Positions 7,980 to 58,100 of a DNA stretch of 64,000 bases are shown one piece after another. Within the stretch, counting starts at the first letter, position 1. Every line of letters begins with the position of its first letter. The stretch is from the NCBI RefSeq assembly GCF_022458985.1, contig NC_061786.1:19474974-19538973 (forward strand), in the 5' to 3' direction. The notes under the pieces were generated by a model. The model saw only the letters and a program-made list of their open reading frames with translations, was not told the DNA's origin and did not search any database. This stretch comes from Mugil cephalus. Its lineage: Eukaryota; Chordata; Actinopteri; Mugiliformes; Mugilidae. Position numbers and translations under genes: made by a program.

Positions 7980-10900
7980 ATGGGATCCAGAGCGTCCACG
8001 TTACTCCGAGAAGAGGAAATTGAAGAAATTAAGAAGGAGACCGGCTGTAAGTTAAGCTCCGGCTAATTCCTGCGGTCGGGACACTTGAGCATTAGCTAGC
8101 TTTCTACTATATTTGCAATATGATTTACTGTTGTGACACAACCAAAGTCTGACATTTGTTCAGGGAAATGTCATAATTTCACATACCAAGAGGAAGCTGC
8201 GTTGTGTGTAATTTATTGGCTGCAATGTCACTGGGTGAAGTTTCATCCATTCAGTCTCTAATGACAGATTTAGTGTAATAAGGGTTAGTATTTAGGTGAG
8301 AGGTTGCTCCCTTTGAAGCACTCTGTATAGCTGCTATCTTCTCTTTATCTGGTTGTAAAATCTTTGGTGTCCTCTCTGCAGTCTCCCACAGTCAGATCAC
8401 CCGCCTGTACAGCCGCTTCACCAGCCTGGACAAAGGGGAAAACGGCACTCTAAGGTAAACATTAGTAAACACCAGCCTGAATGTGGTTCTTTTGCAAGTC
8501 AAGAAGATCACAAAGACATGCTGGGACCTAAACGACAACAAGGTCAATTGAAATTCATCTTGTTAAATATTTATGGTATTTACAGGGGCAGAATCGGAGG
8601 CTAGACACACAAGGAGGACTATAAATGGTCCTCACGCTTGCTTGACGGACACAATATAACAGTCCTGCATTAAATCTTAAATTCGTGAAGGTCAGAGCTG
8701 AAAATAACCAAATTGTGTTTTCATTTTAGAGGCTGTGCATTCTTGTATTCTTATTGGATTTGTTTGTTCATGACACGTGTTTCTGTTATTTTGGGAGCCC
8801 TGTTCTAGTCAGTGGACCAAATAACTGAAAGACTTTTGTTGGATCAGCACCTTCCTGATGCCGCTTTATAAAAATAAACATTGTAACGGAGGGATCTAGT
8901 TCAGGACTGATTCCTCAAGCGTGCTGAATCTTTTGGTGTATTTTTTCTGTAACTGCATGATTTAGCCTAAGGATGTTAGTGTGTGTTACTCATTAGGTGT
9001 GAATGAAGTCTGACAAGGAGCTTATTACGTGAGTGAAGTCACAGAATGAGACGAGCGATAGGTGAAGAAATGTGTAATCATTAAGCAACTAAAAACCTAA
9101 GTGTGAACCATGGTTTTGGGAGTGAGGATTCTTCTTGCGCACGTCACTCCATCAAGGGCAGATTAAGAAAAATAAACGCCTTTGTCGCACCATTTCTCAG
9201 AACTCCAGCCTTTGAATGTGCTGTGTTTACACATAATAAGTTATTGGTTCCCCTTGTTCTTTCTCCGGTGCCTTCAGTCACGACACACGCCACGTTTGTT
9301 CTCATTTTTCCTCAGTGTGACATACTTCCTTATCGTTTTAGAGTTGTCACAACAGTGAGGTTTCACGTATATTTAAGCAGGCTAGCTTTCGATCCCAACG
9401 CTGGACAAAGAAACCCTGTCACTGGTCGTTAAATCTCTGAATTTAGTCAATTATTATTTCATGGATTGAGTCAAATTCAATCCAAACAGTCTCAAGCCTC
9501 ATCGCACATCAATCTGAGGCTTGCATTAAATTAGAATAAGTTATAAATAAGTTCTTTCTGCTGCTTGAATATGTTGTATTTGATTGTGTCTCCTGCAGCC
9601 GTGAAGATTTCCAGAGGATTCCAGAGTTGGCCATCAATCCTCTCGGAGACAGAATCATCAACGCATTCTTCCCTGAGGGGTGAGTCGTCCCCGTTATTTG
9701 GTCCGCAGTCTTTTTGGGCATCCTGTTATTCGAGTGTGCGCCGCTGCGGGTTTGAGTCACCACCGCCACATCTGAACCAGCCCGTGATGCTTTTCTGTTG
9801 TGGCTCCTCCGCTCCTTTGTGCCAAAACTGTGTAGAAATAAATCAAGCGGGGCATCGAGCTGCGTATTTGACGAGTGTTTTTTATCAGCCTGGAAGTGAA
9901 AAACCAGATGTCGGTGAATATATCATTAAAATCCCCAAAAAGACAGATGTGTAGGCGGTTTAATTTTAGCCGCGGTGTTTAATGGTTTCCGATGGCTTCT
10001 CGTTTCTCTGGTTTTGGCCTCTTTGCCTCCGAGTGAGAATAGAAGTGGGGAGAATTCAAGACTGTGCAGTGGTGTTAGATTACTACTGGTTTGAGTTTTT
10101 ATTGTGTTGCGCACACTGCTTCGTTTTGAACACAAAAGTCATCCGAGCCAACGTGTTTTCGTCTTTTCTGTTTCACTCCGGTCTTCAGAGAGGACCAGGT
10201 GAACTTCAGAGGCTTCATGCGGACGTTGGCTCACTTCAGGCCGATAGAGGACAACGAGAAGAACAAGAACGCCGCCACCAGCGAGCCGCTCAACAGCAGG
10301 ACAAACAAGCTGCTCTGTGAGTGTGCGGCGCCCGGTCAGGCAGGCGGGCGTGTGCGGGCGGAGCCGCTGACCAGCATCGTGCGCATTCACGGGATTTACT
10401 AACTTGCGTGTGTTTTTGTTTTCCAGTCGCTTTCCGCCTCTATGACCTGGACAGAGATGACAAAATCTCTCGGGATGAGCTGCTGCAGGTGAGTGTGCCG
10501 CTCGGTCACGTATATGTGACGCCGAGTCACAGTAAATCAGACACATGGTTAGTGATTAGGTTTAAACCTTTTTCTTTTCTTTTCTTAGTAAACATTAACC
10601 TATCAGAATATTTGCTGTAGGTTTAACAAGGAGGCTGATGTTGCACAACATGCATTTAAAAGTGCTCTACGGAGAAAAGGACTTCCACGTTGATGAGGAG
10701 ACTTTGCCCTTGTGCTGATAATGACACGATATCTCAGCTTAACTACGGGTTGATATTCCCCAGACAGTCTAATATCCTGTATTTTGACTTCCTCTGGGCT
10801 CCCTCCGTGTTATTTGTTGTCTGTGTGTGTTCATCCTCGGTTTCTGTGACATTGTGTGACCTGTAATAGGCGTAAGCTCCGGGCTCAGTGACTCAGACTG

Positions 10901-11728
10901 ATCCCTTGTTTTGCGCAAAACATCTCTGTGTCACCTGCGTCCTCTGATGTGCCTGGAAAACGAAATCATACGTGACTCAAAGTGCTGTTTATGTGCTTAT
11001 TTTTGTAACCACATATGTCTGCACCGTTATTTATAATCCTACAGTAGCTGTGAGCTAGGAAGGCATCACGACTCTTATATAATCTCGAGTAGCAGCTGTT
11101 TTTCAGACTTTTGCTTCCTTCTCCTCAGGTCTTACGGATGATGGTCGGCGTGAACATTTCAGACGAACAACTCGGCAGCATTGCCGACCGCACCATCCAG
11201 GAGGCCGACACAAACGGAGACAACTCCATTTCCTTCAATGAATTCATCAAGGCAGGTTTTTTTTTTGGTCGTCTTAAACATGCAGCTCCTTTTTTTTTTT
11301 ACCCGTAACCGATGCTATTTGGAGGGTTCTTTTTAATTAAAAGCCCCGACCATGTACCATGACCACGTGCACTTTTAGCCTCAGTGGGACGCAGGCTAGA
11401 GCCAGAACTGGCCTCAGGAAAAGGAGGAAATGTATATCCCAAGGAAAAGGTTTTGCATAGTACTGAGCAGTTTTGCATGTCGCATAGTAGCATGTGAATC
11501 ATTGTCTCGCTGTGAGAGCACAGGATGAAGTCCTGGATTTCACTTTAATTTGTGTGCAATATTTTGTTTAGGACCATTATATTAGAATCCATTAGTTTTC
11601 ACTAGTGTACCTAATAAACAGTCGGCTGAATACGTTGTTTTACGTTTGATTCTAAACCGGTTTTCTTTTCTCAGGTCTTGGAAAAGGTGGACGTGGAACA
11701 GAAAATGAGCATCCGGTTCCTGCACTAA
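7980..11728 (+). CDS. chp1: Calcineurin B homologous protein 1 (calcineurin-like EF-hand protein 1)
   Basis: Seven coding exons: 7980-8046, 8382-8454, 9599-9679, 10189-10316, 10427-10488, 11129-11251 and 11675-11728, giving 195 residues, the same length as mammalian CHP1. The N-terminus MGSRAS is an N-myristoylation signal. EF-hands 1 and 2 are degenerate. EF-hand 3 ([12 protein letters not shown], about 123-134) and EF-hand 4 ([12 protein letters not shown], about 164-175) keep calcium-binding residues at the canonical loop positions. The C-terminus [13 protein letters not shown] is near identical to mammals. CHP1 binds the cytoplasmic tail of Na+/H+ exchangers such as NHE1 and inhibits calcineurin. 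The start ATG follows a GC-rich leader and has a favourable context (CACCATGG). Intron 6 uses a GC donor (AAG|GCAGGT), forced by the frame. Confidence 0.98.
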
Positions 11729-13009: not shown

Positions 13010-13860
13010 TTTGTGTCATTTATTGGGAGAGTTTTTTGTCTTTTAAATTTTTGCGATTGGGTTTATTGCTTTTAGTAGCAGGTAGTGTCAAGCTGCTGCT
13101 GGATGTAACTTCATGAAAATCATTTACAATTATAGTACAACTATAAACAACTTATTGTTATAAAAAGTCTTTCTAGGAAGAGGTACGTTTAGCCAATGAA
13201 CTATGTGTACAGTGCATGTACCAGTGAAAAGAATAAATTAGAAAATAAATTCATTTGAGTAAGAAATTTGTGTGGGTGGCGCTAACTAGCTAAATCTGTT
13301 TACCTAAAGATTATTCCTCTATCATTTTCTTTTCATCGTTAATTTATTCTTGTTTCTAATACACTGTGGATACGTATGTACATTTCAGTATATATATTTC
13401 TCGAGTTAATGAAATGTAATATCAAAACCAATGAGATTGATACTTAAATTTCGGTTCCTCAAATGTGCTATTTGCCAAAGCCTCTAAGATTCAGTGGTAA
13501 CGTGACAAACTTATATAAGCAAATGAAAAATCACTAAAATCATCATTTTTTTAAACGGCTTTTGAAAGGAATAGATTTAGTTTTGTCACTACATTGTAGT
13601 TTCTGAACACTGCCTGAAAAATAATTTGTTTTCATGTGTTCTCAAGTGATAATTTTGAGTTGTTTCTGAACATAAACTTTTATTGTGATAATAAAGTCTT
13701 TTTTTTATTAACTAATAAACTATGCCCAGATGTTAACTGATTAATAATCCAAAAGCAAATCACAAAAACACTTAAAAGTCACGAAAATTCATTCAGATTT
13801 AGATTGTCGATACAGGCCCTGCATTTGCCACTTGGCGTCTGATCGATGCAAAATCCAGCG
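13010..13860. other. Intergenic spacer chp1-cyrano
   Basis: AT-rich sequence. I see no exon, RNA gene or transposon termini in it. Confidence 0.55.
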
Positions 13861-13889
13861 GCATCGCAAAAAGGACAAACAAAGAAGAA

Positions 13890-14000
13890 GAAGCGCTTCC
13901 GGGGCGGGCCTTATCGCTTATACGCTTTGATTGACAGCCGTCCGGTCCAATCACCGCTTTCTTCCGTTGGTTCATAGTAGCAGGGCGAAAATGGCGTAGA
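13890..14000 (+). promoter_or_regulatory. GC-rich promoter of the cyrano locus
   Basis: A local GC-rich patch in AT-rich surroundings carries a GC box (GGGGCGGG, 13901-13908), an ETS-like CTTCCGG, a CCAAT box (13947-13951) and a YY1-type AAAATGGCG (13988-13996). The last is typical of a position at or just after a transcription start. No long open frame follows, which fits a TATA-less promoter of a non-coding transcript. Confidence 0.6.
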
Positions 14001-15412
14001 GCGCAGGGTGCTCAGAGGAGCAGCAGCGGACGACGGGACCTTCTTCTCTCCTCGTCTGGCGAGTGCACGGTGGGGAGAGAAGGGGGTCCAGAAGGTTTTG
14101 TGGGTTTGTCATTCTTTTTAAATACATCCTCACCTAGGCGGCCCCTCTCAACACAACAAACCGTCCCGTTTGGGAGACCTGAACGTGTGACCGTAGAAGA
14201 AGACCCCCCGTCCCTCCCTCCCTCCCTCGGCTTTTGTTTACCATTGTGTTGAGCTGCGGCTCAAACCACAGAGGAAATATCTCTGCAGTGTCTCCGACCA
14301 ACTCTCACCAAGGTCAGTGCTTCAGCCAGCCTCAGCCCTGCTCTCTGTTTCAGATCTGGTTTCTGGTTTTAAAGGATGCATCGATCTAAGAACTGCACAT
14401 ACATTCGAGTTAGTTGTTTTAAATTTTGTATTTTAGCTGGAGGCTTATTATGTATTAAGTGTGTTTTCCCAAATCACATATAGGTACAGGTTCAGCATCT
14501 TAATGCTACCTGCTGCTACTATATATTTCATATATTTAATAACGTTTATTTTACATGTTTGATATTTTATGCAGTATTTATATATCTTGTGTAGTTTCAT
14601 ACATAAACTCATATATTTTCTTTCAATGATGTGCATCACACATGCGCAATTGCAATTTCATGTGACGTACAGTTACAGTGATCATTAGTATTTGTGAATG
14701 AGATCGTTATATATATGTGTGTGTGTGTTAGTTTTTTACATTTCCTTTATCTTTTTATTTATTTTTATTCCTGTACGTCTATCACTATATAGACACACAA
14801 TATTTATTGCACTAGTATACATACATTGTAGTATGTTTTTCTTTGTTTGTCTTTGTATATGTATTATATATATATTCTTTATATATTCTACCTACCTATA
14901 CTTTTATTTTTGACCCTTTTTGGTGACTAATTCGTCCTGCCTCTGTGTAATAATGCTACTGGATACCTAACTCTCCACTGGATGAATAAATATATCTATT
15001 TATATAGATATATTTAAAGATCTGTCTGTGCTGAGGTTCAGGATTTGTAACGCAACAGTTAAAATAATTAGGAACTCAATCGATAACTTGATTAGCAGTA
15101 AATTATTCAGCAAACTTTTGATTAACGGCTTAAAAAATGTGTATGACATTGAAAAAAGCACATCATAATAATGAGGATGTCTAGAGGAAAACCTTATTTT
15201 CAATTAATGTAAATGTAAAAGCCACTTGTATATGTTCAAATACAAGAAGTTTCTTCTTTTGCACACACACACAAAGCAGGAGGCAGCCATGCAAAGGTTT
15301 TAGGTGCTTGGGCTTTAAACCACTGACCTAACTGAACTCTCAGATCCACTTCTCTAACCATTAACCACAATATTATAGTCCTACATAAACCGCGTGTGAA
15401 TTATTATTCTAG

Positions 15413-15512
15413 GAAGAGACGGAGCCATGAAACCAGCTGAAGCCCACACCGCAGGAATGTCTCCCTTCGGATCTGACCCAGCATCGCCGACATATCACTC
15501 CAGCCCGCGGAG
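15413..15512 (+). ncRNA. cyrano: Candidate cyrano exon 2 containing a short ORF start
   Basis: Flanked by a good acceptor (TTATTATTCTAG) and the donor GTAAAA. It contains an ATG at 15427 opening a 28-codon stretch beginning MKPAEAHTAG and ending YHSSPRR. If spliced to the acceptor at 15615 the frame closes after about 16 more residues, so any product would be about 44 aa. I recognise no homologue and treat this as a non-coding exon with an incidental or translated small ORF. Confidence 0.45.
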
Positions 15513-15796
15513 GTAAAAGACTCGCTGTCAAGATGACCTCTTTCTGGGGCGTCTGTGCACGCGGCCGACCTCCTTCCTGCTGCTGCTGGGACGTCGGCCG
15601 CCTCTCCTCCGCAGCATCCCCTCACGTCCCGGCCTCTTTCTGCCGCCCGATCACCAGTGAGGACGCCTGCCAAGGTTGTTTGGCCGTCTCACTTCCATTA
15701 TGCACACTCTGCCCATGTGTAAATGTAGCCTAAAATTAGTCCGGGTGATGTTCTTGTCAGGCTGCGCGTCAACATCAGTCACTGCCCCTGGAAAAT

Positions 15797-15820
15797 AAAA
15801 AAAAAAAAAAAAAAAAAAAA
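15797..15820. repeat. Poly(A) tract within cyrano
   Basis: A run of about 24 A residues. No retrotransposon body can be recognised just before it, so its origin is unclear. Confidence 0.8.
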
Positions 15821-16888
15821 TAGTAAGGAATCAAGTTATTTTGGTAATGAACAAATTATCTGCTCCCATTTTCTGGGAAGAAAGCAAAGACACACGATAC
15901 TGTAGCAAAGATCAAGGTCTGTGATTTAAATGGGCGTCATCGCGTGCGTTTTCCTCGTTTAATTTCGTTTGCACTACCTCATTGCCATAGCAAGTCCAAC
16001 AGGGTTGAAAAAAGGAGTGCGATCAGCGCAGGTAGCTCAGTGGTTGTCGAGCGCCACAGCAGTTTCGTCATCGTAATTTTCAGTTGTAGACGGTTAATAA
16101 GTGAAGTGAGGTTTGTGGAGATTTAAGTAGGAGCAGCCAACACGCACATGATGTCATTTACCTTCAGCTCAGCCATTTTGGTAGCATCTTTTACCCCGTG
16201 TCCTCATTTCAGGTTTACCGTGCAGACGATTCCCCCAACGATTAATGCTTTAGACTGAAATTTGGCTCCTTTTCTTATTGTATTGTTTTAATGTTTGTCC
16301 ATTCCCACATTCTGGTCCAACGTTGGCTTTACGGTACTTTTTATTTAGGCTTTCACCTTGAATATGTTCCCCTTTCTACCTCATTAGCTGTCATTTATTT
16401 ACATGCAGGTACAGTCATTTGACTAAACAGTAGGTGCACGAGTGGAATGCACCGTAATACAACACACCTGAACTAAATCCTGTTCAGTTTATGTTGAAAC
16501 AGCGTCAGAAAGGTGGTTTTTCTTAACTGTACGGTCACTTTGGAGGATGTAGTTTTTGTTGCTGTTGAGCTGCATTGACTTAAACATGTGTTTTTGTTAT
16601 TGGGGTTAAAATGGGGTTGTCAAAATAATAGAAACACTGTTCAGTAGCTCAACGGTGACATTTTAAACAGGTTTCAGTGCAGGGCTGTTATATTAGAATG
16701 CATTCATTTTCACCGGTGTACCTAATGAACTGGCGAGTGAGTGTAGATGCGGAGCTTTGATTTCTTTTGTGACATGAAATCATAAAAACATTTCTTATTT
16801 CCCAACAAATATGATCAAACCTGTTGTTTTGTCTTGTCCTCACGTTGGGGGGGGGACCCCTGGTTTCTTCTCCTTTCCCACCCTTGTA

Positions 16889-16920
16889 GCCCCCCCCCCC
16901 CCCCAAAAAAAAAAAAAGAA
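16889..16920. repeat. Poly(C)/poly(A) tract upstream of the miR-7 site
   Basis: A run of C followed by a run of A, preceded at about 16846 by a run of G. It lies about 100 bp before the conserved miR-7 element and marks the edge of the low-constraint part of the lncRNA. Homopolymer lengths here are error-prone in any assembly. Confidence 0.8.
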
Positions 16921-16947
16921 AAAGAAAATCGCATTTTACCGGGATTT

Positions 16948-16955
16948 GTGCAATA
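16948..16955 (+). promoter_or_regulatory. miR-25/92-type 8-mer seed match in cyrano
   Basis: GTGCAATA is the full 8-mer match for the AUUGCAC seed of the miR-25/32/92 family. It lies 77 bp upstream of the miR-7 site in the same presumed exon. One 8-mer can occur by chance; its position inside the conserved part is the only support. Confidence 0.3.
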
Positions 16956-17024
16956 TTTGATCTTAACTGTCATGTTGTTGACCAAACTGTATATTGTATA
17001 AACAAGTGACAAGTTGTTTGAAAG

Positions 17025-17048
17025 CAACAAAATCACCAATGTCTTCCA
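17025..17048 (+). promoter_or_regulatory. cyrano: Extensively complementary miR-7 site (TDMD-type) of cyrano
   Basis: CAACAAAATCAC (17025-17036) pairs with miR-7 nucleotides 11-22 without a mismatch. CAAT (17037-17040) faces nucleotides 9-10 as a small internal loop. GTCTTCCA (17041-17048) matches the seed, nucleotides 2-8, with an A opposite nucleotide 1. Full seed plus long 3' pairing with a central loop is the architecture known to trigger degradation of the microRNA rather than slicing. The flank AAGTTGTTTGAAAG before it and TTAAGATATGTATA after it complete the short block I recall as conserved from fish to human. Confidence 0.93.
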
Positions 17049-18736
17049 TTAAGATATGTATAGACTCATGTGCATTAGCTTATTTAGCGGGACTGTGGTG
17101 CCAACATTATAGTAGCCATGCATGACCAGTAGTGACGCTTGCTTCATGGAGAGTAGTGAGATTGATTTTATTTTTATTTTTTTTTCCTTTATAGACTAAG
17201 TCGGGAAGCTCGAAGCTTTTCGTTTCAGTTTAGGTAACGGGTGTCGACTAAACACACCAACACTTAGAGAAACACGGCTTCGTCCCTAAAATCTAATCTG
17301 TGCGACACAATCAGAGTATGCAATTAGAAAATATTGATTCGAGTCGCTTTACGTACGCTCAGTATAAGTATAAGTGCTGTGTTGTATCCATGCACTCTTT
17401 AAGCATTGGCAGGATTAGGTAGGTTAATACACGAGAGCCAAAAACGTCCCACTAAAATGAGCGTGGGGTAGAAAATAAAAATGTTCTGCTGCATCCTGAT
17501 TGGGATGCGACGTAGTGTATTAGAATTCCAGATCTCACCGTGACATTGCTTTGTACATATTTACCTCATAGTTTCGGGATTCGGAGCGTTCTATTTCAAT
17601 CCATAAAATTGTATTTGATTAGAGTTTTAGAAGCAATAACCTACAATAATGCATGAGTTTAGTGCCAGGGTGTTTAAAGTGTTTAAAGGATTCTGTACCG
17701 TGGAAAGGATTTTCTCCGCCTCGCCTCTTTCTATTTTTTACGTTTTGGCCGTTTTACTCGCCGCCACTCGAGAGTCACGCGTTTGGCTTTAAATAACAGC
17801 GGTACACTGGATAAGGTTTACCGTGCGTGAGGACAGTTAGTTGTAGCATCAGTTTCTTTCAGCACCAGAACAATAATCCGAAGCGATCGGTACGTGAGAG
17901 ATGCTTAAAATTGAAATTCTTGTAGCATTTTTACATCCACAAAAAACCCAGCCCTCTCTTCTTCTTTTTTATTTTTTCTTTTCCTCTTGAAATATAAACT
18001 TTTCAGTAACTGTGGCTGCAAAAAGAATCACTGCACGAACTTGACACTTGTTTGAAAAGCACTTTCTCTCTATGTACTGACTTGCATCATCACCATCATC
18101 ATCCTGTCTTGTGTTCTAAAACAAAAAAAAAAAAACACAAACGGAAACCTGTAATGCTCCTTCTGCGGATTTTTATTCACAGTTTTTAAAGCAAGTAGGC
18201 GTCTAGGAACACGGATATACAGTATGGGTTTAAAAAATATGCATGAATTAGCAGAATAACGAATGATTTGTATTGCATGCAATAATCCAACTTTGTAATG
18301 TGAATGCGTGTAATTAGGATATTGAAACGTTCTGTGACAAGATGACGACTTGGGGACAGTTGTTTGACTCGACGGCGAGCGCGTCCGAACGCGGCTCCGC
18401 TGACGCGACCGATCCGCAGACGGAAAAAAGACGAGACGGAGGCTTTTGCTCGAGCTCCCTGTCGTGTCAAACGTGACCGGGGCAGTACAGCCACAGTGCA
18501 GCTGAAAAACACAACCTTTGTTCCCATGAAAAGAAAAGAAAAAAAAACACAACAACCTTAATCTTAGATAAGATTAATGACATTACTTTGTTGATCAACT
18601 TTTTCACTGAGGAGGTGACCTGTGTAGAAACTATGCACTCCAGAGGGAGGAAATGGGCATGCTTATTATGTGTGAGCCTCTTGTCTGGTTTTGTATTAAA
18701 GAAAAAAAAAAAAAAAGTCTGTATCAGAAGTTCAGC

Positions 18737-18742
18737 AATAAA
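18737..18742 (+). terminator. cyrano: cyrano poly(A) signal
   Basis: AATAAA, the last plus-strand signal before the convergent oip5 3' end. The gap between the two predicted ends is only about 220 bp. Confidence 0.5.
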
Positions 18743-19002
18743 ATGCAGCATGGTGCCAATTGGACTTCGGGGTGTTGATGTTTGCTTAAAGTGTGAATGC
18801 TGCCGCAGAATGAATGACTTGACGCACACTGTCAGAATCTTACAGAGCAGCTACAGGTGACTAAATATAAAAAGAGTCTGACAAGAGGAAGTACAGAAGA
18901 CTGTATGCAAAGCAATGAGGCAGGAACACTCGCCTAGCAAAGATAAACAAACACATAAAACTGGACGGGTTTATAAATGAGCTTTTTTTTGAAAAAAATA
19001 AC

Positions 19003-19008
19003 TTTATT
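19003..19008 (-). terminator. oip5: oip5 poly(A) signal
   Basis: AATAAA on the minus strand (TTTATT on plus), 165 bp past the oip5 stop codon and followed by a T-rich stretch on the minus strand. Confidence 0.65.
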
Positions 19009-19172: not shown

Positions 19173-21245
19173 CTAGAGCTGGATTCCTCTCGAGTTGTAA
19201 CTGCTCAGTTCACTGGTGCTACTGACATCGGCTCCTCTACTCTCAGTGTGCGACATCAGAGCTTCCAACAACGTCTCAAACTGTTGTTTCACCTGCAGTC
19301 GAAAGGAAAGATTATATTTTTTTTTCTGAAACTGAAACATCCAAGTCCTGTCACGTGTTTAACACAAGGTTAACGGCAATGACACTGTGTCCTTTATGCA
19401 GCCTGTACCCAGGTTAATGAGCCCAGATCTCTATTATTGACTTCTTGAAAATGTGTTGCTCTGCCAATGAGCCACTGAGTTTCTTTATTTCATTGTAGCG
19501 AGGCGGACCCATGCCACCTGCAAACCTAAAGTAACCATCTCCATTTTTAGGTCTTTGGCGGCACCTGTGGCAATCAATGGTAACTGCAGGTGTTGTCTCA
19601 CAAAAACTCAAATTTGTAAATGCAAAGATTTCCAAATGCCATTTTGTTTTTCCATTTGAAGACAGATGTGTGCATTAAGATATTTCTTTAAATAAAAATC
19701 TTGTAGTACTTGTTTAAAGGTGCATTATGTAAGAAATGACAGTTTTGACTCTATGACATTGTTCCAGAAATATCTACTGAAGACAGCATGCTAACCAGCT
19801 AGCAACAGCCCATCTCATTATACCACTTTATTCCACATGTGGTCCAGAGAGGGTATTTTTCTTTTATACAGACAGACATTTTAATTCTAACCTTGTGTCA
19901 AACAATGACAATAATAAAAATTTAGCAAACATAGACAGGAAGATATACAGATAAACACACAATGTTTCACAAGTGGTGATGTGTCTGAATATAGTTTTAA
20001 AAGACATTTCTGGATATTAATATAATATTAAGCCATTCATATTTTCCAGTCTCACCTCAATAATGTTTTCTTTGAGAGGCCTCTGATCAAATGAGACCGC
20101 AGATGCTTTTACCATTGAGCTGCTGCCGAGGATGAAGCTGCAGACAAGATTAGGACAAAGAAAAGCTTTATTTATTGATTTGTATACGATTAAGGATGTG
20201 TTTCATCTCGAATATGAACTTTAAAAATCCTTTCATGCACTAGAACAAACTCTCGTAAGGCACTTGTTTATTGTAGCTCCTCCAGACAGCAGTAAACATG
20301 TACACAGGAAGTAAATATGGCTGCTTGCTCGGTGGGAGTGGGAAAGCTTACCAGCGGATGTTTGCCTTGCTGAGGAGAAAAATGGAGCGAACTGCAGCCA
20401 GACGTGATGGAGCTGAGTGAATGACTTTCCCCAATACACAACCGCAGCCACGGCATTTCAGAGAGCTGTATATACTGAGAGTAAACGAGAGCAGTGAAGC
20501 CGAGAGGGAAAGCATTATTTAAACTAGTGACAGTGAAGGATGAGGCGACACATCCAGCAACTTATTTATTATTTCAACGTTTCAAAAGCCAAAACTCACC
20601 AATTAATCATCTCTCCTTTATATCCTGACTTCATTGCATCACTAACAATCACATCCTTTGTTACTCCTAAAGGGCGACAAGCATAAAAGTACTGATTAAC
20701 AATGTTATCCTTGCAATACATTAAAAAGTGTGCCAGGAAGAAATTATTAAAGAAAGAACAAAAATGACATTACAATATCAAAAACAGAATAATATGTTTT
20801 TTTTTTATGTTTTCATAATGTTAATATTTGTGTAAATAAAGGTTTATTAATGTTCTAAAAAGTAGTCATATTTTTTAACCAAAAGTCAGTATGAGCTTTT
20901 TTCCTCACGACACGTAAAGTGAGTTGTCTCCATGGCAACTAAGCAAACGTCGTTCAGCTGGCTGCTGCGTACGTGAAATAACGTAAACCAGGAAGAGCTG
21001 ATTTCTTAAGTCCCCAAAACGCTTTAGAAATAAAAAGTATTCCAACATTGACAGCTGCTTTTAATTCGCTTACTTATACACATGATGGAGCCCAGACAAG
21101 CGACCTCTCCACAGACGCCGAAGGAGTCCGCCAGCACAGCGTTGCACTGCTTACAATGAAGAGTCATCCGCTGCCTGCCTCCTGCTGCTTTGTCCGGATT
21201 TAAATCGTCGTTCCATTTCATTTCAAGTTTTTTCTTTAATTCCAT
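19173..21245 (-). CDS. oip5: Mis18-beta / Opa-interacting protein 5, centromere licensing factor
   Basis: Five minus-strand coding exons: 21245-21074, 20666-20600, 20474-20352, 20137-20056 and 19292-19173 (TAG), 187 residues. The Mis18/Yippee zinc fold shows both CXXC pairs: CKQC at residues 31-34 within HCKQCNAVLADSFGVCGE, and CRGC at 87-90 within LKCRGCGCVLGKVIHSAPSR. The helix FLLSKANIR after it also matches human OIP5. The C-terminal segment VKQQFETLLEALMSH is the predicted coiled coil used for Mis18 assembly. With Mis18-alpha and M18BP1 the protein loads CENP-A at centromeres after mitosis. The start is the first ATG; a short N-terminus compared with human (229 aa) is normal for fish. 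The gene is convergent with cyrano and divergent from nusap1. Confidence 0.95.
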
Positions 21246-52100: not shown

Positions 52101-55100
52101 TCGCACACACCGATCAGCCATAACATTAAAACCCCTGACAGGAGAAGTAAATATCATTGACCGACTCAGTGATTTCAAACCTTTTCCAACTCAGGACCCA
52201 CTTTTAAGTCTCAAACATTTTCGCGGCCCACCTCTGACCCCATAAATAATGGGTGGATAATGGATGAATGAATTGAATACAGGAGAAACATGTTCCACAG
52301 CATCTGTAATATGTTGCAGCAGCATCACTATTAGTTTTCAAGAAGCTGTCCATCAGCACCACACAGATGCTCAGAAATGACAAGCAAGGGACTGTCTGTA
52401 ACAGGCTAATTAGCAAATGATTCATAAATAACGCATTTACACATATAACAATTTCATATGCAATATCAGATCCAAATATCAAAAGAAGTCCATTAAGTAG
52501 ACACGAATAAACACAAACCCGATGTAAAGATGATGTAAATTCTGCTCGGTTCTAGTCAGATGAAAACTTCAATTTAAGCAAAAGTAACAACATCAAAGAA
52601 GCAAAATCTTTGCATATTTCATGCTGCTATGTTGCCATTTTTATTTATATTTCTACTACTATTTTTTTTAATTTTATTTATCTTTATAATTGTATCTATA
52701 CTGTTCACTTGATATCTATATATTATAGTTAATATAGGAAATAATCCAGGACCTGAGTGCATAATTTCGTTCCTTCTTGTGCTTCTGTTGCAAATGACAA
52801 ATAAAAATCCTTGAATTAAGAAATATTACCCTTGAGGGTGGGCTTTAACGACATTTGAGCACTTGTGGCGATGTCCGCAAGCATCACCGAAGTGCTCAAA
52901 TGACGTTTAAGCACACCATGAAGGGTAATATTGCGATTATACAACAATTACCAACAAAATACAGCGTATATTAAAATATATAATTATGTTGATGGTCAGA
53001 ACTACTTGATGCATAATCCTTGAACATCAAATGAAATGATTTGGTGGCCCACTTGCAATACCTTCGTGGCCCACCAGGGGTTGGGAATCACTGCACTCAG
53101 CTTTCTGAAATAACACAAATCTTCTCTTTGGTGAATTACAAATTCCATCACACTCTTTTGTGTGTTGTTAAACTGTTCATGTCATATACTGAGATTTTCC
53201 ACTTGCATGTTCTAAAAGATTGGAGATATCATTGCCTCATATTTTCCTGTTTAGGATCAGATATCATCTCTCCCGCTGTATTAAATGTGGAAGTATGTCA
53301 AAACTTAACAATGTTAACGTTTTTCTTTATGTTTGATGCTATCTTTAGCACATGATCTCAGTGAAGGAGCAGCTCTCTGGGCAGCTCAAAGAGGCCGAGG
53401 CAGAGGTGATGAGAGTGACTTCAGAGCTCAGCACAACCAAGGACCAGAAAAGGGCTCTGGAGCAAGAGCTGGAAAGCCAAAAGGAGAAAATAAGCCAAAG
53501 TGCGTTCACCCTCAACGACCTGCACATGGGAAAAAGCAGTTGGAGCAGACGGTGAAGGAGATGAAAGAAAAACTGGGACATGCGCAGGAGCAGAGCCGGG
53601 ACGCCAGGAGAGAAGTGACGGAGCTGAAGAAGACGCTGCAGGAGAAAGAGGAGCAGTTGTCCGTTGCCAAAGCAGAGTTGGATCGGGGAGGGGAGAGAGA
53701 AACCGAAACGCAAGGAGCCAAAGATGACCTGGCAAGAAGGGAGAGAGAGGTGTCAGACCTCAGGAGGGAATTGGATGAGATGAGGAGCTCTCATGAGAAG
53801 GTGATGTCTGAAGACTATGAGCTGAAGATGGAGAACAGGAGGTTGAAAGTAGAGAGCGAGCAGACTCTGGGTAAAGTCGAAGAACTGAGCGCGCAGCTGA
53901 ATGAAGGCCAGTCTGGTTTTAACAGGATCATAAGGGAGAAGGACACTCGTATTGAAGCTTTAAAGCTGGAGAAGAATCAGATTGAAAGTGAACTGACGCA
54001 AGCGGAGAAGACTCTAGCCGAGCAGGTGAAGCAGTACCAGCAGACCATCGACGAGTTGACCCGAGCTCGGTCCATGAACGCCTCCGCTTTGCAGACCGAG
54101 CACGAACGCGCCATCAAGCTGAACCAGGAGAAGGACATGGAGATCGCTCAGCTGAGGAGAGACATGGAGCAGCTGGCGTCGGACCACCGAGACACAAATG
54201 AGATGCTTTCGATCACAGTGTCGGGGCAGAAGCAGCTCACAGACCTGCTGCAAGAGAAGGACGTCTTCATGGAGACCATAAAACAGAACGCCGCGGAAGT
54301 ACAGACTGAGATGGAGAACAGTATTTCAGTCGTGACCAAGGAGGCTGATGCTCTGAAACAGGCGTTGGAGGACAAGGACAAACAGCTCGGAGGGATGAAG
54401 GAGGAGAACAGCCACTTGAAGGAGGAGATTGATCGGCTCAGGGATCAGCAGAGCAGACCTCAAGCTCTTGCCGAGCCCCGGACTCTGGACATCATCACGG
54501 AGCTGGAGACGGAGATCTCCCAGCTCAAATCCTCCAAGAACGGACTGGAAGAGGAGGTCCAGACTCTGAGGAGGTCCACGGAGGAGCAGCAGGCTTCCCT
54601 CCTCTTGTTGCAGCAGTCTCTGCAGACCCAGCAGAGCGAGCTTGAGCAGGCCCACGCTCGCCACCAGCAGACCACGCTGAACTATGACAGACTCATCCAC
54701 GCCAGGGACGAGGAGATAACCCAACTCCAGCATCAGCTCAATGAGAGCCAGGGCCGAGCCAACTCTCCACCCATGCAGGGAGAGGTCATCCTGCAGGAGG
54801 ACAAGACGCAGTCTCTAAATCAGGAGAACGGTAACGAGAAGCACGACCTGTCTAAGGTGGAAATAGAGAAACTAGTGAGGGGCATCAAGGAGAAAGAGAC
54901 GGAGATCAGCCAGCTGAACGAGAAGAACCTGTCGCTGACCAGGCAGCTGGATCAGCTGGTGGTTTCCCGCGATGAAGTGGGCAAACTCTCCCAGGTGATC
55001 ATGCAGAAGGACCTGGAGATCCAGGCGCTTCATGCCAGAGTCTCAATGGGCGGAGGACACAACCAGGACGTGATATTCTTGCAGCAGCAGCTGCAGGCGT

Positions 55101-58100
55101 ACGCCGTGGAGAGGGAGCAGGTGCTCGCCGTGCTCAACGAGAAGACCCGAGAGAACAGCCAGCTCCGCTCCGACTACCACCGCCTCATGGACATCATGGC
55201 GGGGAAGGAAGCAGCCTTGTTGAAGCTCCAGCAGGAGAACCAGCGCCTCTCCAACATGAGCGATCCTTCAGGAAGCCAAGAGATGTTCAAGGAGACCATC
55301 CAGAACCTGTCTCGAATCATCAGGGAGAAGGACATCGAGATCGACGCGTTGACCCAGAAGTGTCAAACCCTGGTGACGGTGCTGCAGTCCTCGGGAGGAG
55401 AGCCCGGCGCCGGCTCTGGAGGCGTCAGCAGCAACCAGTTTGAGGAGCTGCTGCAGGAGAGGGACACCCTGAAGCAGCAGGTGAAGAAGATGGAGGAGTG
55501 GAAGCAGCAGGTGATCACGACGGTCAAAAACATGCAGCACGAGTCGGCTCAGCTGCAGGAGGAGCTGCTCAAGCTGCAAAGTCAGGTCTCGGCCGACAGC
55601 GACTGCAGCTCCAAGCTGTCGGTGGACTACACCCGACTCATCCAGAGCTACGAGCAAAAGGAGAGGAGGCTGGGTAGTCTGAGTGTGGAGCTCGCGCAGG
55701 TCCAGCAGACCATCACCCAGCTCAGCTCCACCAAAGACGTCCTGCTGGGAAAACTGGATAGCGTGGCGCAGACTCCTGAAGCTGTAGCCGCTCAGTCTAG
55801 TGGCCCCTCTCTCACGGCCGAAGCTCCGAGCCGTTCACCCGCAGTTTCACCTGTAAACGACGAGAAGCCGCAGGAGGAACTTCTGCAGCTGCGAGCGCAG
55901 ATAGCCGAGAAGGAAAACGTAATCAGGACTCTCCAGGAGAACAACCACCGGCTCTCCAACTCGGCATCTGCCTCGGAGACCGAGCAGAGAGGTCAGGCTG
56001 AGGAGGCCCGGCAGCTCCGGGAGCGACTGGACGCCCTGCAGAGGTCCGTGAGGGAGAAAGACCTGCTCATAAAAACCAAAGGGGACCAGCTGGTTCAGGT
56101 CAGCGAGTCTCTGCGTAACCGCGAGAACGACAACGAGGTGCTGAAGCAGGCGGTGACCAACCTCAAAGAACGCGCCCTCATCCTGGAAATGGACGTGAAG
56201 AAGCTGAAGGAGGAGAACGAGCTGGTGGCGGCGCGCTCTCGAGAGAAGGAGTCGGAGTTCAGGGCGCTGCAGGAAACAAACATGCAGGTTTCCCTCCTGC
56301 TCAGAGAGAAGGAGTTCGAGCTGAGCGCGGTGAGCGAGAAGGCTGCGACGGTGGAGAAGATGCTCAAGGACAGAGATCAGGTCGGTTAGAGGTAGAAAAT
56401 ACATCCATCAGTGTCATTTTAGAATGAAAACGTTGATGAAAAAATCGTTTATTATCGGCCCAAAACATGAGTTTTTTCATTTTTAATTTAAAATCGATAT
56501 TAAGACATTCAAAGTCGATATTGTATCAGAAGAAAAAGTATGCCGATATATTGTCATATCGATATTAATTCCCACTCCTAAGACAAACATTATAATGTGT
56601 GAAGTAAAAAAGTGCCTACTCTTCTCTACATAATTTGTAATTTTGTGACTCAGGGTAAATCTGGCGAGCTGAATCAGCTCCTGAACGAAATGAGGTCCAT
56701 GCAAGAGAAAGCCGTGTTGTTCCAGCAGGAGAGGGATCAGGTGATGATGGCGCTCAAGCAGAAACAAATGGAGACCACGGCCGTGCAGACTGAGGTAGGA
56801 GGACAGTGTTCACTCACCGGTAAATCTGACTCTGAATGAAATCCAGCTGTTTGGTTTTTTTAGCCAGACGGTGCTTTTAATTAATTATCCAACCGTCATT
56901 CCCGCTGTGGCCTCACAGCTGCAGCATGTCAGGGACAAAGAGCAGCGCCTCAACTTGGAGCTGGAACGGTTGCGCAATCACCTGTTGGAGATTGAAGATT
57001 CGTACACGAGAGAAGCCCTCGCCGCTGAGGACAGGGAGGCCGAGCTGCGCAGGAGGGTGGCGATGCTGGACGAGAAACTGGCCACGTCCTCGTGTGCCGT
57101 GGAGAACGCCAGGTTAGAATAAAAGGAACCATGTGTGCATGTAATAAAACGAAGTAAGAACTGAGACATTTTAGATGCACCGATCCGCCACAACATTAAA
57201 ACCACTGATAGGAGAAGTAAACATCGTAGACCATCTTGACATAATTCAGTGTTTTGCTGGGAAACTTTTGGACCTGGAATTCACTCATTCATGTGGATGT
57301 TACTTAGACATGACATGACTTAGACACTCCTTGATGACAGCCTGACACACACACAAAAAGAAAACAATTAGAAACAACTAAAAAGAGAAATGAAGAACAT
57401 CTGGCCTCCAAATTCACTACATCCCAAATTAATCAAGTGTCTGTGGGATGATCCACAGAGACCCCTCCACTCAACCCCCACTAACAACATCCTGTTGAAA
57501 GACACCAAGGGCTTTGGAAGCATGTTCAATCCTCAAATTAGGTCGTAATGTTATGCCTGATTGCTCTACATTCCACATTAAACTGATAAAAAAACTGCAC
57601 AAAACTACACTCACATGTCTCATCATAAAAGTTATTTAGTCATGATGATAGAAACCTTCTCCTCTTGTGTCCTGGTGTTTATCTCCTTCCATCTTTGGAA
57701 TTTTGTAACATACGTTTTCTGATAATGACTAGAGAGTTAAGTTGAGTCTCTGATATCAAATAGTGGAGTTTTTGCGTTTCACTGCGAATTAAGTTCAAGA
57801 TTCATTGTAAGAATTTTTTCCAAAGCGCTCAATGAGCAAACTGCACAAAATGTGAATATGTGGTAGAAAGTGATAACGCAAATGCCTACATTTTGAAAAA
57901 AAACTCTCAAATATCTAAAGCTAAGACACTTTTATATCAATGCATCTAAAAAACCCACCACGAGAGCATAAAAAGTGCAATGGAAACATTTTTTTCACAT
58001 TTCCCCGTCACCAGAGCTGTGATGCAGGCGGTCATGTGACCAGTCCATTCGAAGTCCATTTTCTCAAACTAAAGTCTCGCTATGTGACCAGAATTTAAGA

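Follow-up and report, generated by a model that had tools for sequence, protein, structure and literature searches.

A 24-nt sequence in the genome of Mugil cephalus raises the question of whether the DNA around it is the gene of the long non-coding RNA cyrano (OIP5-AS1) and, if so, whether this RNA would cause the destruction of miR-7 in this fish. Cyrano is among the few long non-coding RNAs that are recognisable from fish to mammals and is a potent natural trigger of microRNA destruction; its conserved block is ~67 nt long. The window, i.e. the whole stretch of 64,000 nucleotides analysed here, lies at C17:19474974-19538973 of the genome that was searched. The name teleost cyrano, given in the initial annotation, is supported by the order and spacing of conserved elements and by the flanking genes, chp1 and a Mis18 family member. 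Judged by motifs and gene order within the window's own genome, the interval 13.97-18.78 kb is almost certainly the teleost cyrano gene.

The putative miR-7 site has three parts.

17025..17036, forward strand: CAACAAAATCAC, predicted to pair with miR-7 nucleotides 11-22; positions 17023-17024 may add A:U and G:U pairs for nucleotides 24 and 23.
17037..17040, forward strand: CAAT, the four target bases of the internal loop, facing miR-7 nucleotides 9-10.
17041..17048, forward strand: GTCTTCCA, the 8mer match to the miR-7 seed, flanked by AT and TT.

The 24-mer CAACAAAATCAC-CAAT-GTCTTCCA had been placed at 17025-17048 of the forward strand, which is correct to the single base. Pairing of the complete seed and of nucleotides 11-22 around a 4-versus-2 internal loop had been proposed as well and was reproduced exactly by RNAduplex: miR-7 nucleotides 1-8 form 8 pairs, nucleotides 9-10 face the four target bases CAAT, and nucleotides 11-24 form 14 contiguous pairs (12 Watson-Crick, then G:U and A:U). 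The duplex energy at the site is -29.5 kcal/mol, with -36.7 for a perfect miR-7 complement, and the next best miR-7 duplexes elsewhere in the window reach -22.2 (forward strand) and -26.0 (reverse strand). A scan of both strands with 67 miRNAs yielded 592 seed matches, and more than 8 contiguous 3' pairs were seen only for miR-7 at this site. The 12 bases of CAACAAAATCAC (17025-17036) are perfectly complementary to the miR-338-3p 3' end as well; the shared 3' end is a curiosity. Ordinary miR-338 targeting is not expected here, since the scan gave no miR-338 seed match with 3' pairing at this position. The 3' duplex of miR-7 alone has -17.4 kcal/mol (ViennaRNA), slightly beyond the range of -9.6 to -17.1 quoted in a review, which stems from a different program (PMC10899785). 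Accessibility is not unusual, the seed part lying at the 48th percentile and 17029-17036 at the 76th. Just upstream, at 16847-16917, a run of 9 G is followed by 15 C and 13 A, and length errors in the assembly are likely there.

Pairing of the predicted strength might also serve a passive sink, i.e. cyrano would hold miR-7 without destroying it; any high-affinity site can hold Argonaute-miR-7. Against this, the interval contains one 8mer miR-7 site only, so that a sink would need very high RNA levels, and in mammals the same architecture leads to degradation. We give this reading very little weight.

Could intergenic DNA have produced the pattern by coincidence? Taken alone, short seed matches occur frequently: GTCTTCCA was counted 5 times in the window (both strands) with 2.73 expected, which is ordinary. 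The full pattern is not: with a free 4-base bridge and up to 3 mismatches the site is the single match in the window, and 0 of 100 dinucleotide shuffles contained one. The exact 24-mer occurs once in the genome (634,849,253 bases, 24 contigs). Relaxed in the same way, with a free bridge and up to 3 mismatches, the genome-wide search returned 110 places (50 forward, 60 reverse) versus 190 for a reversed-pattern control, so that near-matches of the pattern represent background. Among the matches listed, fewest mismatches first, the miR-7 site is free of mismatches, places with a single mismatch are absent and six carry 2. A chance match is rejected by the shuffles, by the uniqueness in the genome and by this mismatch distribution, and other cyrano elements align in order around the site; coincidence is thus extremely improbable. 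The exact 24-mer had no match in collections of viral and prokaryote contigs, from which records near the window's own genome were possibly omitted.

A shorter pattern (8 + 8 bases, bridge of 1-8 bases) was found at 7 places in the genome, with 3 for the reversed control. Four of these places are antisense to miR-7 genes, one is 17025-17048, and the remaining two are on C9 and C19 (L016 and L020, near base 1501), each with an 8mer miR-7 seed match, a 5-base bridge and 8 contiguous 3' pairs. As candidates for further extended miR-7 sites these two are regarded as chance, because of the control count of 3 and because their flanks cannot be aligned: blastn between the two loci (3 kb each) aligned only the 21-base motif. 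A second cyrano copy, as might derive from the fish genome duplication, was not detected, the 271-bp block 16930-17200 matching only itself in the genome (E up to 0.001).

Further support for the identity of the interval comes from elements outside the miR-7 site. In a comparison of cyrano from 18 vertebrates, including seven fishes, nine elements were kept in all species but shark (PMC7798263). The eight whose letters are given in the text of that paper were searched for, and 8 of 8 were found in the interval in the published order, among them 6 of 6 lying outside the miR-7 site. These six are as follows (elements after PMC7798263).

13991..13999, forward strand: ATGGCGTAG, the AUGGCG element close to the 5' end, where ATGGCG codes for Met-Ala and TAG follows directly, giving an ORF of two codons.
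16947..16955, forward strand: TGTGCAATA, element 2, a miR-25/92 seed match 69 nt 5' of the miR-7 site.
17057..17063, forward strand: TGTATAG, the conserved Pumilio-like element.
17119..17125, forward strand: WGCATGA, the conserved Rbfox-type element, with the Pumilio-like element 55 nt before it.
18631..18637, forward strand: CTATGCA, a conserved miR-153 seed match, with the polyadenylation signal 97 nt after it.
18735..18742, forward strand: GCAATAAA, the conserved polyadenylation signal and miR-137 seed match, with a GT-rich stretch downstream.

The three gaps of 69, 55 and 97 nt compare with published distances of ~60, ~55 and ~100 (PMC7798263). Several of the elements are weak evidence singly, since they are individually common by chance: among 3000 random sequences of the same length and composition, AUGGCG was present in 47%, WGCATGA in 51%, TGTATAG in 27%, CTATGCA in 25%, GCAATAAA in 14% and TGTGCAATA in 4%. 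Their order was examined in 4.9-kb windows, a size picked to fit the interval, moved in 100-base steps (591 windows per strand). Just one, 13901-18800 on the forward strand, contained all six non-miR-7 elements in order. Four or five in order were present in 47 other windows, all on the forward strand and all overlapping 13901-18800, and no reverse-strand window (591) held more than three. With spacing limits taken from the distances in PMC7798263, yet fixed after the sequence had been seen, the chain TGTGCAATA - TGTATAG - WGCATGA appeared in 0 of 3000 local random sequences and 0 of 300 whole-window random sequences, and the chain CTATGCA - GCAATAAA in 2 of 3000 and 2 of 300, respectively. 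A second forward-strand copy of TGTGCAATA lies at 11553, inside chp1.

Additional WGCATGA motifs bring their number in the interval to 3 (17119, 17650, 18240; expected 0.73), a count reached by 4% of 500 random sequences, which is a modest enrichment; consensus Pumilio sites number 1 (expected 0.40) and are not enriched. Compared with the TISU consensus, the context of the 5' ATG matches at 9 of 12 positions, with the core ATGGCG kept, and so falls short of the full 12-base match; this context does not count among the nine elements and is hence no defining feature of cyrano. A dispersed repeat of 60 nt, perhaps a transposon remnant, occurs within a chp1 intron (11570-11629) and again 284 nt before the miR-7 site (16681-16740); the two copies are 78% alike.

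The position of the site on the forward strand between chp1 and oip5, as read in the initial annotation, was upheld, with chp1 upstream and an oip5-like gene of the Mis18 family downstream.

8381..11728, forward strand: six 3' coding exons of chp1; the joined exons match an EF-hand pair with 3.3e-17.
19173..21245, reverse strand: oip5-like Mis18 gene with five coding exons, convergent with cyrano; its 187-aa product matches Yippee-Mis18 (PF03226) with E 1.7e-23.

The ORF 11093-11308, which holds one of the chp1 exons, has its best PDB match in CHP1 (2ct9, calcium-binding protein p22, E 1.9e-18), with CHP2 at 1.1e-12. For the oip5-like product, the PDB hits include 'Kinetochore protein mis18' (1.3e-07) and 'Protein Mis18-alpha' (1.9e-06); a chain named OIP5 or Mis18-beta was absent from this match list, and PF03226 covers both Mis18 and Yippee proteins. 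We presume the gene at 19173-21245 to be oip5 from its position and its sequence. Its last intron contains an 86-aa open frame (19414-19674, reverse strand). Beyond it, Pfam matches were obtained for NUSAP (PF16006, 1.7e-15), CIA30 (4e-12), Plus-3 (5.2e-12) and Golgin_A5 (9.5e-32), the CIA30 match representing the NDUFAF1 family and Plus-3 occurring as in RTF1. In human, the gene order is CHP1, OIP5-AS1, OIP5, NUSAP1, NDUFAF1, RTF1. The literature search returned no paper naming OIP5-AS1, CHP1 and NUSAP1 together.

Towards the ends of the window some other features were seen. The region 40700-63000 contains the Golgin_A5 gene, followed by a long coiled-coil-like gene whose 1023-aa open frame (53318-56389) has no Pfam match; presumably it resembles TRIP11 in sequence. 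At 271-332 an Rfam tRNA match with 30.3 bits (E 0.027) barely exceeds the gathering threshold of 29 and is possibly a pseudogene or a SINE head. The stretch 1661-2223 looks coding, with a sub-threshold legumain prodomain match at 1819-2223 (22.9 bits, cut-off 25.2), and is perhaps the end of lgmn.

How far would the RNA extend? Limits of 13.9-18.8 kb had been suggested for the transcript, and these agree with the mini-ORF at one end and the polyadenylation signal at the other.

13970..18775, forward strand: putative cyrano transcription unit, unspliced, from the 5' mini-ORF region to just beyond the polyadenylation signal; limits approximate.
14307..14318, forward strand: possible exon 1 donor ACCAAG/GTCAGT, last exon base 14312; the best-scoring donor in the stretch scored.

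CpG observed/expected is promoter-like at the 5' end, with 1.21 for 13801-14000 and 0.95 for 13901-14100 compared with 0.69 for the window. The longest forward-strand ATG ORF in the unspliced interval encodes 71 aa, and Pfam (E up to 0.01) gave no match for 8 ORFs, a subset of those in the region (six on the forward and two on the reverse strand). The donor was scored with a crude consensus matrix and is put forward as a candidate; an exon model is not claimed, since several acceptors have similar crude splice scores. Downstream, 260 bases separate the cyrano polyadenylation signal from the AATAAA of the oip5-like gene (reverse strand, 19003-19008) within 18742-19008, so that the 3' ends of the two convergent genes probably do not overlap.

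Conservation of the block might be due chiefly to RNA folding or to the binding of Pumilio and Rbfox proteins, and pairing with miR-7 would then come second. According to PMC8250186, human cyrano was suggested by Jones et al. 2020 to form a cloverleaf, and Pumilio-like and Rbfox elements are present in the interval. However, the re-analysis in PMC8250186 could not assert a conserved structure, and here the local fold of 241 nt is ordinary (z +0.33), 122 of 200 shuffles folding at least as well, which led us to reject a special RNA structure at the site. No Rfam family was found in 13900-18900 (E up to 1). We regard such a primary role of structure or protein binding as hardly likely.

A trigger site requires its cognate miRNA. 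The first 22 nt of miR-7 are present in 4 exact copies in the genome; one mismatch added no further place, and the reversed control gave 0. All 4 are recognised as mir-7 precursors by Rfam and score 77.9, 76.4, 66.2 and 64.1 bits, above the gathering score of 51.8. The copies L011, L012 and L013 continue with TT and L010 with TG; nucleotides 23 and 24 could accordingly pair with the site for three of the four.

In mammals, the ZSWIM8-CUL3 ubiquitin ligase is recruited to Argonaute-miR-7 by an architecture of this kind, and ZSWIM8 together with AGO2-miR-7-CYRANO has been studied by cryo-EM and biochemistry (PMC13083262). Altering the length of the bridge decreased ZSWIM8 binding; the flanking RNA contributes, although its own sequence is not needed, and ~25 nt per side are enough (PMC13083262). 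The Cyrano site is described in a review as having a strong seed, 14 contiguous nt of 3' pairing and miR-7 positions 9-10 unpaired, and most of the activity is lost when the 8mer seed is weakened (PMC10899785). The site in Mugil shows these features of a degradation trigger: an 8mer seed match, unpaired miR-7 positions 9-10, long 3' pairing and the cognate miRNA encoded in the same genome. According to this model, Argonaute loaded with miR-7 would bind the site via the seed. Beyond the 4-by-2 internal loop, pairing would run along nearly all of the 3' part of miR-7, and this extended pairing is expected to block slicing and to draw the miR-7 3' end from the PAZ pocket. ZSWIM8-CUL3 would recognise the resulting form of Argonaute-miR-7, Argonaute would be degraded and miR-7 lost, i.e. 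target-directed microRNA degradation would take place. It is probable, in our judgement, that the interval is cyrano and that 17025-17048 is the trigger site degrading miR-7 in this fish; transcription of cyrano and degradation of miR-7 in Mugil are what we infer from these letters.

The working of the site is less settled in fish than in mouse, in view of mutant and deletion results from zebrafish. Zebrafish with mutant cyrano survive and are fertile, two deletion alleles being without overt phenotype (PMC6347452). Deletion of ~280 bp including the site led to higher levels of the cyrano RNA that remained, in embryos as well as in adult tissues except brain, a rise which, according to the authors, is not shown by mouse (PMC6633201). 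Such a rise would be expected if the fish site acted mainly on the RNA itself, miR-7 lowering cyrano with little loss of miR-7; seed matches for miR-25/92, miR-153 and miR-137 are likewise present in the interval here. Yet the pairing follows the mammalian degradation trigger in its layout, neither the loop nor the 3' part being disrupted, and far exceeds what a repression site needs, and transcriptional up-regulation is offered by the zebrafish authors as another cause of the rise (PMC6633201). We consider a site of mainly repressive action unlikely. A further proposal, which we advance tentatively and hold to be improbable, is that the teleost site works both ways: it would destroy miR-7, and miR-7, together with the miR-25/92 match 69 nt upstream, would restrain cyrano, a feedback that mammals would have lost or retained in weaker form. 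If true, it would explain why the remaining RNA is over-expressed in zebrafish without the block.

As for the identity of the interval, the annotation is accurate and concerns an orthologue of an RNA that is already known, as is its mechanism; teleost cyrano has been described before. The fish site leaves knowledge of the mechanism unchanged and adds one more species in which the behaviour of the site can be compared between fish and mammals. From elements recognised purely by their letters a usable annotation rule can be derived, consisting of a 5' ATGGCG mini-ORF, TGTGCAATA, the miR-7 site, TGTATAG, WGCATGA, CTATGCA and GCAATAAA, with oip5 adjacent.

Circular CDR1as binds miR-7 as well, through many ordinary sites; here there is one extended site. 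The libra/NREP (miR-29) and HSUR1 (miR-27) triggers have seed pairing, an unpaired bridge and extended 3' pairing in common with the miR-7 site, and differ in the miRNA addressed and in that the 3' pairing of the miR-7 site is long (14 contiguous nt). Their sequences are not known to be related to it. The closest likeness is to vertebrate cyrano / OIP5-AS1, which shares the miR-7 site, the order of the eight elements and, approximately, the three spacings (PMC7798263), along with the 5' ORF, which has two codons here and 2-3 codons in the published comparison, the polyadenylation signal, oip5 on one side and the lack of a large ORF. Differences exist: for cyrano a perfect TISU match is reported, compared with 9 of 12 positions here, and the unspliced interval has 1 consensus Pumilio site and 3 WGCATGA motifs versus 18-species means of 3.2 and 9.8 (PMC7798263). 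The upstream neighbour of zebrafish cyrano is tmem39b (PMC6347452), whereas in Mugil it is chp1.
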